38,119 nucleotides of DNA from Planctomycetota bacterium (lineage in GTDB: Bacteria > Planctomycetota > Planctomycetia > Pirellulales > Pirellulaceae). A model generated the notes under the pieces. That model was not told the origin of the DNA and made no database searches. It saw only the letters and a list, made by a program, of their open reading frames with translations. The stretch is taken from NCBI GenBank assembly GCA_963205385.1, contig CAUJKE010000280.1:1-38119 (forward strand), read 5' to 3'. Position 1 is the stretch's first letter. Each line of letters begins with the position of its first letter. Positions 12,149-20,643 of this stretch are shown in pieces. The position numbers and the translations under genes were made by a program.

Positions 12149-12207
12149 CAGGGTCGTTTACGACCCTTTTCCGCGCAGCGGTCTTAGGCCCGTGCTTGAG
12201 CACGGGT
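12149..12207 (+). repeat. Three-hairpin palindromic repeat family A, copy 1
   Basis: This unit of about 60 bases has three hairpins in a row: GGGTCGT/ACGACCC (12151-12166), CCGC/GCGG (12171-12181), and CCCGTGC/GCACGGG around TTGA (12189-12206). Near-identical units lie inverted at 12326-12387 and direct at 20582-20643. Differences between copies often keep the pairing, as with T-A replaced by C-G in the first stem. Confidence 0.75.
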
Positions 12208-12235
12208 GTGCAGGGCTCCTCATTTTTGCGTATTT

Positions 12236-12280
12236 CAGGGCCGTTCACGGCCCTTCTCGCTGCATGGCTTTAGCCTCGAC
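12236..12280 (+). repeat. Partial or diverged copy of repeat family A
   Basis: The first hairpin of family A is present in a perfect form (GGGCCGT at 12238-12244, ACGGCCC at 12247-12253). The rest is diverged, keeping only GGCTTTAG-like wording where other copies have GGTCTTAG. Confidence 0.5.
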
Positions 12281-12325
12281 GTGATGCCTCGTGTGGGGCT
12301 CAAGCCGCCCAGCGAGAAGCTAATA

Positions 12326-12387
12326 ACCCGTGCTCAAGCACGGGCCTAAGACCGCCTGGCGGCGGAGAAGGACCGTGAACGGCCCTG
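12326..12387 (-). repeat. Three-hairpin palindromic repeat family A, copy 2 (inverted)
   Basis: This full 62-base unit lies in reverse orientation to copy 1. Its middle hairpin is CCGCC/GGCGG with a GCCA loop, one pair longer than copy 1. Together copies 1 and 2 form a large inverted pair of about 240 bases. The remaining part of the gap, 12388-12519, shows nothing I recognise. Confidence 0.75.
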
Positions 12388-12519
12388 GTTATCGCGGCGT
12401 CACAGCCAAACGTTGGGGTGCTAGTTGTTGCAAGTCAGGCGGACGGCATGCGTTGCGTAAACTAGCACGCACGGACTCGCCAGGATCCGGCCCTCTCAAC
12501 CTTGGCAAAACTCCAAAGA

Positions 12520-19800: not shown

Positions 19801-20159
19801 AGATGCTTCTGCATGTATGAAAGGCGATCATCTACGGTTTGCGCCGCGAGGTCATCGTTGAGCCACTCCCCATGGCCCCGATTGTCTTCCACCCCCTGGC
19901 CTTGCCGGAAGGTTTCACACACATAGATGCGGCCTTGATGATCGACATAGAACGCCACCGGGTTGGCGAGCAGCGGCTCCGCGGCGATGAGTTGCCCCGT
20001 AAGCCCCGCGGGAATTTTGAAGCCTGCCAGCGCGCGGGCCCCCTCCTCGGACGCGGCGGCGATCTTCGGCTCCTCCGGCAACGGGCGACCGTCCTCGGCA
20101 AGGGCGGATAGGGTCGTCAACGCGCTCATCGCCAGCGCGAGCAAAACCAACTTCTTCAT
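16866..20159 (-). CDS. PVC-type membrane-bound dehydrogenase-like protein with HEAT repeats and a C-terminal haem domain
   Basis: This 1097-residue exported protein is typical of planctomycetes and verrucomicrobia. After a signal peptide ([21 protein letters not shown]) comes a glucose/sorbosone-dehydrogenase-like propeller with [50 protein letters not shown] and [16 protein letters not shown]. The middle third is HEAT-like helices ([29 protein letters not shown]). The end is a cytochrome c-type domain with CVRCH at 977-981 and GPELTKI. It probably oxidises a sugar or related substrate and passes electrons to the c-type haem outside the cytoplasmic membrane, though the substrate is unknown. 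The ATG at 20159 has a GGGAG site 8 bases upstream and starts at the signal peptide. Confidence 0.92.
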   Translation of the reverse strand: [1097 protein letters not shown]

Positions 20160-20460
20160 CGAGGACTCCCAAGAGATTGACGCTAACACAGGGCGCGCTG
20201 AGCGGAGATTAGAGCTACCGCGCCAACGGGGGGCGATCCGAAAGGAATTTCAGGCGGGACGCCCAGCCGCTGTCATTCGCCTGAACGCAAACCATCAAAG
20301 TACCGCAGGTTGAGGATTTTCGCAATTGTTGCGTGACCCATGACCCCTGTTTCCCGTTTTTCCGAGCGCCATGACGAGCGTGCGATCGCGCTTCGACATG
20401 TGGATCGGGTGCTGCTCCAGCGCGGACGACAGGACGGATTATTCACGAAGAGGGGACTCG

Positions 20461-20493
20461 CTCACCATCGGGACGAGCCCGAAGGGGGCGTGG
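20461..20493 (-). repeat. Palindromic repeat family B, copy 4 (inverted)
   Basis: Read on the minus strand, this copy has the GATGGTGAG flank and a hairpin CGGG/CCCG around CTCGT, very close to family B copy 2. It lies about 90 bases from a family A copy, as in the 12-kb gap. Confidence 0.5.
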
Positions 20494-20581
20494 AGGGGGG
20501 CGGGGATTACTCGCGGCGGCTAATAATCGCCGTTATTCGTGGGGGCGCACGATCGGATACGCGGTCAAAAACGTCGGTATT

Positions 20582-20643
20582 CAGGGCCGTTCAGGGTCCT
20601 TTTCCGCCGTCAGGCGGTATTAGGCCCGTGCTTGAGCACGGGT
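20582..20643 (+). repeat. Three-hairpin palindromic repeat family A, copy 3
   Basis: This full 62-base unit shares the CCCGTGC/GCACGGG hairpin exactly with copies 1 and 2, and it has a CCGCC/GGCGG middle hairpin with a GTCA loop. Its first hairpin is partly decayed, with about five pairs left including a G-T. The rest of the 700-base gap between 20160 and 20865 holds no supported gene. Confidence 0.72.

Follow-up and report, generated by a model that had tools for sequence, protein, structure and literature searches.

The repeat studied here lies in the genome of a Planctomycetota bacterium (Pirellulaceae; assembly GCA_963205385.1), where it was found on contig CAUJKE010000280.1 in a stretch of 38,119 nucleotides, hereafter called the window. 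Its unit, module A, combines three hairpins: H1 (AGGGNCGTT[TC]ACGNCCCT type), H2 (CCGC-GCA-GCGG or CCGCC-GTCA-GGCGG), a TATTA or TCTTA spacer, and H3 (GCCCGTGC-TTGA-GCACGGGT). It is probable, in our view, that these units form the ends of Y1 (HUH) single-stranded DNA (ssDNA) transposable elements, which make up one family in the order Pirellulales, and that the genome of the window holds them in gene-less or solo form. The best reading is an ssDNA family related to repetitive extragenic palindromic (REP) sequences and IS200, with composite three-hairpin ends and a transposase resembling TnpA subclass 1.2, which works like a REPtron/REPIN system.

Composite elements in relatives and in the window

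In relatives from other families, a Y1 HUH transposase gene of about 143 aa is enclosed by such units. At locus L274 (G179:C199), module A (from 27817), a second module B, the transposase gene tnpA, and the inverted modules B' and A' (to about 28506) follow each other in this order. Four further loci (L273, L275, L276, and L277) are built in the same way, with units on both sides of the gene and a total length of 659–742 bp. The two ends of L274 have different H1 sequences (AGGGTCGTTCACGACTCT and ATGCCCGTTCACGGGCAT) and also differ in the H3 stem, while their form is the same. Two copies in genome G233 are 79.8% identical over 702 bp, and on either side their similarity breaks off just inside the outer H1, about 20 nt or less from its end; we therefore set the edges of the element there. 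Locus L223 carries A-B and B'-A' with only codons 91–141 of the transposase gene matched between them, and L222 carries A-B with 33 codons of the gene (its A unit was recognized by eye only); such internal deletions thus explain gene-less A-B-B'-A' copies. Both ends kept and the gene gone, as in a nonautonomous derivative, is what we found: a C-terminal remnant persists in L223 and none in the elements of the window's genome. L284 and L285 apparently represent the locus of one transposase in two members of the same genus, with 86% identity in the flank over 269 bp, and the gene was matched in two pieces in L284.

The window holds three H1-H2-H3 units of 59–62 nt each. A covariance model trained on 36 units, including these three, and referred to as R1, gives exactly three strong matches in the window (79.7, 74.7, and 74.7 bits), and the next score is 23.4. 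On the basis of these matches and the sequence, we delimited the following features:

12149..12388, + strand: composite gene-less element A-B-B'-A' of 240 bp, with two outer three-hairpin modules in inverted orientation and two inner B modules; seen in the sequence and as model matches at both ends.
12150..12208, + strand: module A, left end, with H1 at 12150–12167, H2 at 12171–12181 (loop GCA), and H3 at 12188–12207; 74.7 bits.
12237..12275, + strand: module B, an H1-like hairpin at 12237–12254 followed by TCTCGCTGCAT and the hairpin GGCTTTAGCC at 12266–12275; seen in the sequence.
12297..12319, − strand: remnant of module B' (GGCTCAAGCCGCCCAGCGAGAAG) without its H1 hairpin; seen in the sequence and by comparison by eye with the full B' of contigs C85, C227, and C238.
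12325..12386, − strand: module A', right end, with H3' at 12326–12345, H2' at 12352–12365, and H1' at 12369–12386 (+ strand coordinates); 79.7 bits.
20583..20644, + strand: solo module A, with H1 at 20583–20600 (one broken pair), H2 at 20604–20617 (loop GTCA), and H3 at 20624–20643; 74.7 bits.
11994..12401, no strand assigned: stretch common to other mosaic copies in the same genome (self-BLAST of 38 stretches of that genome), including hairpin repeats of a module C upstream of the element.
20452..20650, no strand assigned: stretch common to other mosaic copies (same self-BLAST), including the linker before the solo module A.

A preliminary description of the window had reported three full units and one partial unit, and their sequence at 12149–12210, 12236–12275, 12326–12388, and 20582–20643 is indeed as described there. 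What it took for separate copies between 12149 and 12388 is best read as a single gene-less A-B-B'-A' element with a damaged B', and 20583–20644 as a solo end. The supposed partial copy at 12236 does share an H1-like hairpin with the full units, but is a different module, B, that scores 23.4 bits with model R1; by eye, module B lies about 30–45 nt past H3 in other copies of the window's genome as well as at L073, L123, L182, L204, and L223. The linker preceding the solo module A was likewise seen by eye between A' and A on contigs C31, C176, C195, C236, and C295.

The composite element lies between two convergent genes encoding a HEAT-repeat protein (11249–11959, + strand) and an FGase family protein (12520–13242, − strand), and the solo copy between two divergent genes encoding a DUF7133/cytochrome protein (16866–20189, − strand) and pyruvate dehydrogenase E1 (20716–23589, + strand). 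A second hairpin repeat, module C (CACGACCCCATCGGGCTCGTCCCGATGGTGAGCGAG type), adjoins the A/B elements at 11997–12031, 12063–12101, and 20454–20492, and was also seen close to copies on contigs C219, C227, and C238.

Pairing, loops, and foot of the three-hairpin module

Folded as ssDNA, the units at 12150, 12325, and 20583 reach z-scores of −4.98, −4.20, and −4.97, respectively, each beating all 200 dinucleotide shuffles. Among 36 distinct aligned units, 97.9% of 708 cells are paired and 15 of the 20 pairs have changed on both sides, and the covariation score is 0.430 compared to 0.106 for shuffled alignments, none of which reached it in 500 trials, and no more than 0.063 when the structure was slid along. 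Most of the foreign rows in this alignment had been preselected by a scanner that requires pairing (56 matches in 204,434 bp with both strands counted, compared to 3 in mononucleotide-shuffled sequence), and we therefore repeated the test on 110 distinct stretches for which the H3 sequence was the sole criterion of choice. Of these, 96 have an H1 that is perfectly paired over at least 7 bp where it is expected, compared to 1, 2, 7, and 7 in four displaced windows, and 105 have H2 (displaced windows: 29, 24, 43, and 45), with the qualification that many rows come from one genome, Arabian9_MAG_5, and are not independent. The compensating change from GGTCGT/ACGACC to GGCCGT/ACGGCC that the preliminary description pointed out is real, as is the lengthening of the middle stem on both sides (CCGC/GCGG to CCGCC/GGCGG). 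Its broader statement that changes preserve pairing holds between species, for the 36 units as well as the 110 stretches chosen by H3, but not throughout, since the broken H1 pair of the copy at 20583 shows that some changes do not.

The loops are conserved as well. H1 is closed by a TTNA loop in 99 of 115 foreign units and H2 by a GNA loop in an equal number, while 53 of 61 units from the window's genome have GNA or GNNA in H2. Mini-hairpin DNA with GNA or GNNA loops on G-C stems is termed extraordinarily stable in excerpts of previous work (PMC4686876), and the complement of the H1-H2-H3 strand would show TNC or TNNC loops instead. Because loops of this DNA-stable kind lie on the H1-H2-H3 strand, they point to this strand, as ssDNA and not RNA, as the folded form. 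As a parallel only, a REP sequence with a TTTA loop has been described in which T and A are proposed to pair (excerpts of PMC8266576). The four bases preceding H3 form an nTAG foot in 94 of 115 foreign, 59 of 61 own-genome, and 25 of 36 aligned units. Within this pattern GTAG is rare (2 of 115, 0 of 61, and 2 of 36, respectively), and GTGG occurs in none of the 36 aligned, 115 foreign, or 61 own-genome units. In several species (L075, L076, L110, L111, L145, and L149), a long GC-rich hairpin follows about 20–70 nt downstream of H3; it was not seen in the copies of the window.

Transposase clade and spread of the units

Among 30 Y1 loci from 14 genomes that carry the units, two 143-aa genes (L182 and L192) are flanked by units. 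Their proteins share 70% identity over 139 aa, and mostly 25–35% with those of the remaining Y1 loci; a third scanner match among these loci (L194) was judged to be due to chance. Y1 genes were present in 14 of 14 carrier genomes, but we rejected this as a decisive link for lack of specificity (65 of the 296 Pirellulales genomes surveyed match the clade profile A3 at E ≤ 1e-15), and we therefore relied on the particular clade and its co-location with the units. A search with one unit-flanked protein retrieved L201–L204 at 60–100% identity, the outer member L205 at 50%, and the fragments L206, L222, and L223. Across the 296 genomes, near-full-length clade matches score at least 154.7 bits and the next Y1 genes at most 82.8 bits. 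Nine genomes contain inner-clade matches (≥187 bits), eight of them nearly full length and one (G079) over 111 of 143 positions. All nine carry units, compared to 22 of the 287 others (Fisher p 4.7e-10); when four outer-clade and two fragment genomes are included, the figures are 11 of 15 compared to 20 of 281 (p 2.8e-9), both p values being uncorrected for common descent of the genomes. In a tree of 48 Y1 proteins, from which 25 loci without an open frame bearing the motif (fragments, broken genes, and other classes) are left out, all nine rows with scanner units within 450 bp fall into one clade of 12 (support 98/96), and none among the other 36. An earlier tree of 42 rows, built with a narrower motif filter that lost some clade rows, had units in 7 of 9 clade rows and 0 of 33 others.

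Clade proteins match PF01797 with 71.0 and 71.3 bits and NF033573 (IS200/IS605 transposase, NCBIfam) with 64.6–67.3 bits at a cut-off of 55, and their nearest solved structure is ISHp608 TnpA (2a6m; E 1.8e-7). They carry the motifs THVH/THLH, WQ, and Y-x-x-x-Q-x-x-H/HH: in an alignment of four members, Y118, Q122, and H126 are invariant and WQ is present in all, with HH in L201, L203, and L204 and YH in L202. More generally, at 41 Pirellulales loci with Y1 genes of the Y---Q--H type, the density of perfect hairpins is 4.98 per kb within 300 bp, compared to 0.55 per kb at 600–1200 bp, and 30 of these loci have at least two hairpins nearby. Without the eight inner-clade rows, the comparison is 85 hairpins in 19.3 kb (4.4/kb) to 21 in 37.0 kb (0.57/kb), with at least two at 22 of 33 loci, though it is confounded in that near windows are mostly intergenic and far windows probably coding. 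Many hairpins near such genes (L172–L272) stand on a TAGCC-like foot and have sequences unlike those of the family studied here.

The window's genome (G000; 6,034,858 bp in 417 contigs, 97.55% complete) is rich in copies. The preliminary description had called for a genome-wide search for further copies and their orientation, and this turned up 47 exact H3 cores and inverted clusters. With up to two mismatches, the H3 core has 87 forward and 84 reverse matches, compared to 1 and 1 for the reversed pattern; the core is a near-palindrome, so that places are counted twice in these two-strand totals. BLAST with one 75-nt unit gave at least 51 matches (40 of 109 candidates scored). Eleven stretches read by eye show alternating inverted arrays, in which A-B-B'-A' elements of about 240 bp are joined from A' to A via a linker of about 95 nt, and two unit types, with H2 of CCGC-GCA-GCGG or CCCGCC-GTCA-GGCGGG, alternate. 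Contig ends lie close to several copies. In Arabian9_MAG_5, single A units also occur as direct tandems instead of inverted pairs, about 157–319 nt apart and with a repeated spacer sequence (L071, L079, L090, L102, and L129).

No transposase was recognized in this genome. Searches of G000 gave no match with one clade protein at E 0.001 or with the clade profile A3 at E 1e-15. A tblastn search of its stretches with three clade proteins, which did find the remnants L222 and L223, stayed at chance level (best E 0.47). The copies examined have no gene remnant between their ends, and no autonomous partner element was found in the assembly. Given the completeness of the assembly, a Y1 gene could lie in unassembled repeat DNA.

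Beyond this genome, the 21-base core was found in at least 100 stretches from at least 16 assemblies of a genome collection. Among the matches listed, 15 of 16 assemblies bear names of Planctomycetota or groups within, and one is named "Candidatus Nealsonbacteria" bin.20 (three stretches). This bin (9.1 Mb; L113, L135, and L145) carries the unit, gave 13 Y1 matches, and probably contains planctomycete contigs under a wrong name. No exact 21-base core was found in viral contigs, and the H3 core at one mismatch is absent from 29 relatives (18 of the same family, 11 of the same order, and none of the same genus). A covariance-model search of related genomes, which the preliminary description had suggested, proved productive: model R1 is positive at E 1e-4 in 31 of the 296 genomes, with copy numbers that are lower bounds because of stricter filters and 18 candidates scored per genome. 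In family f1, the window's genome is the sole R1-positive member, with 35 other members named, which suggests that the element may have come into the window's lineage separately. A different repeat of about 175 bp adjoins the three-hairpin unit at L286 (G134:C26, bases 689–869) and has at least 17 further copies in G134.

Competing explanations and known systems

Several observations weigh against an assignment to a Y1 transposable element family. Twenty of the 31 R1-positive genomes, including that of the window, have no clade member, and four outer-clade genomes (155–183 bits) are not R1-positive. Some positive genomes rest on a single weak match (G078, 8.5e-5; G122, 5.5e-5). The scanner found no unit next to the gene in three clade rows (L203, L247, and L250); at L203, the units share the H3 but lack a clean H1-H2, the L247 locus (L280) has an R1 match of 62.8 bits beside the gene, and the L250 locus (L281) reaches only 27.6 bits. 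A candidate empty site in G146, which resembles the G134 locus along the right flank (80% identity) and has no unit there, differs from it in the left flank. PF01797 has no match in G000 at E 0.001, while 5 of 14 control genomes matched; the RAYT-like gene that the preliminary description had proposed to look for was thus not found there, and a trans-acting enzyme in the window's genome is hypothetical because there is no Y1 match. Finally, recombination could be the source of part of the arrays.

We weighed these points together with other explanations for the same repeats. The preliminary description had likened them to REP sequences mobilized by REP-associated tyrosine transposases (RAYTs), and a canonical REP or bacterial interspersed mosaic element (BIME) system served by a class-2 RAYT would account for palindromic dispersed copies in alternating clusters, for a Y1 gene flanked by units in relatives, and for the TAG that the nTAG foot has in common with the REP foot GTAG. 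The link to folded DNA and a Y1 HUH gene has thus stood, but the RAYT part fits poorly. GTAG itself is rare, each end has three hairpins in about 60 nt and not one palindrome of 20–40 nt, and the transposase shows Y-x-x-x-Q-x-x-H/HH and not Y-x-x-N-P. Its nearest structures are IS608-type TnpA and its NCBIfam name is IS200/IS605 transposase, the window's genome has no Y1 match, and 0 of 4 class-2-like (Y-x-x-N-P) genes inspected have at least two hairpins nearby. The class motif was looked for and not found, and GTAG is rare, though TAG is kept; for these reasons we leave the units outside the GTAG-REP/class-2 RAYT family and regard this explanation as unlikely.

A structured RNA (terminator, mRNA stabilizer, or regulatory RNA) that was spread by recombination and whose pairing is selected on the transcript seems hardly more probable. 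Strong covariation is expected of RNA and the units of the window are intergenic, but no Rfam family matches the window above the gathering score, and the units keep no constant side relative to genes, one locus being convergent and the other divergent (two loci only). The H2 loops are of the DNA-stable GNA/GNNA kind and include GTCA, which is not an RNA GNRA loop, and neither the inverted pairs nor the tie to one transposase clade would be expected of such an RNA. Least probable of all, and by our estimate very improbable, is a miniature inverted-repeat transposable element (MITE) of a DDE transposon or a nonmobile repeat amplified via slippage and homologous recombination. A-B-B'-A' is symmetric as in a MITE and tandem arrays do occur, but the end stems of L274 differ, so that there is no common terminal inverted repeat, and the gene between such ends is Y1_Tnp (no search for DDE genes with these ends was made).

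For the Y1 transposable element family itself, we propose a more specific scenario, which we hold only tentatively and would not quite expect to be borne out as a whole. An undescribed Pirellulales family would have an IS200-side, subclass 1.2-like transposase that reads the fold, the loops (TTNA-GNA-TTNA), and the foot and not the stem sequence, so that the ends drift apart; it would provide a substrate for a transposase class thought to lack one, and would have entered the window's lineage by horizontal transfer, risen to dozens of copies, and been left without its enzyme there. The main reading, which we hold as probable, goes less far. The autonomous form seen in relatives is A-B-tnpA-B'-A', about 660–740 bp long where both ends are visible, each end starting with module A (H1 with a TTNA loop, the GNA/GNNA mini-hairpin H2, and H3 with a TTNA loop on the nTAG foot) and continuing inward with B. 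Recognition of the fold, loops, and foot instead of a terminal inverted-repeat sequence is suggested because the two ends of one element can differ in stem yet share their form. One strand may fold while single-stranded, for example on the lagging-strand template, and the transposase would then cut beside the outer hairpins and insert the folded ssDNA copy at another site. Small derivatives that arose when the gene was deleted may have been mobilized in trans until the transposase was lost. In the window's genome, the gene is gone or unassembled, and gene-less elements, solo ends, and linker-joined arrays arranged like BIMEs are what is left.

The repeats connect the little-known subclass 1.2-like Y1 HUH transposases with one defined type of DNA structure, and a single bacterial order shows it in intact, gene-deleted, and orphan form. 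With constant loops and variable stems in about 60 nt, the composite ends provide a set of natural substrates on which it can be tested directly whether such an enzyme recognizes the fold, the loop, or the sequence itself. A REP-like family also persists here in a genome without a recognizable transposase.

Our searches of open-licence PMC papers turned up no account of repeats with three hairpins, or of repeats linked to subclass 1.2, in Pirellulales. The REPtrons, REPINs, and BIMEs of TnpA_REP (RAYT) resemble our family in their high-copy, dispersed palindromes in clusters of alternating orientation, in a Y1 HUH gene flanked by units, and in a foot ending in TAG, and excerpts of one article mention REP carriers without a REPtron (PMC3733652). 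They differ in that our family has three hairpins per end, a gene enclosed between units, end stems that differ, and the IS200-side Y-x-x-x-Q motif; GTAG is rare and GTGG absent at the foot, Y-x-x-N-P is missing, and no Y1 gene was recognized in the window's genome. TnpA class 3 (excerpts of PMC6006769) and TIRtrons (excerpts of PMC3733652) also have members from planctomycetes or their relatives, and their Y1 gene is likewise surrounded by atypical structures or inverted repeats, some of them in high copy. The CnGA foot, NHVH, W[TA], and YV..EQ that the PMC6006769 excerpts give for class 3 are not those of our units and clade, and the long terminal inverted repeats of TIRtrons, some with GGGGWSAS according to the PMC3733652 excerpts, do not fit either.

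IS200/IS605 elements such as IS608 and ISDra2 likewise combine a Y1 HUH transposase with hairpins at the two ends; these hairpins are described in excerpts of PMC6006769 as small, subterminal, and 20–25 nt long. The elements of the relatives studied here also have hairpins at either end (L273–L277) and encode a Y1_Tnp domain with HUH and Y...Q, but each end has three hairpins and module B, the ends are inverted, and gene-less copies are numerous. By its motifs, the transposase fits TnpA subclass 1.2 best, as far as this class is described in excerpts of Quentin et al. 2018 (PMC6006769), sharing a length of about 143 aa, WQ, Y-x-x-x-Q-x-x-HH, and few copies per genome; the HUH motif there is DH[IV]H and here THVH/THLH, with the histidines kept and D changed to T. 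These excerpts portray subclass 1.2 as low-copy, found mostly in Cyanobacteria and Bacteroidetes, without REP sequences and generally without typical terminal structures. In contrast, hairpins lie close to Pirellulales genes that carry this motif, and one clade of them has the three-hairpin module.

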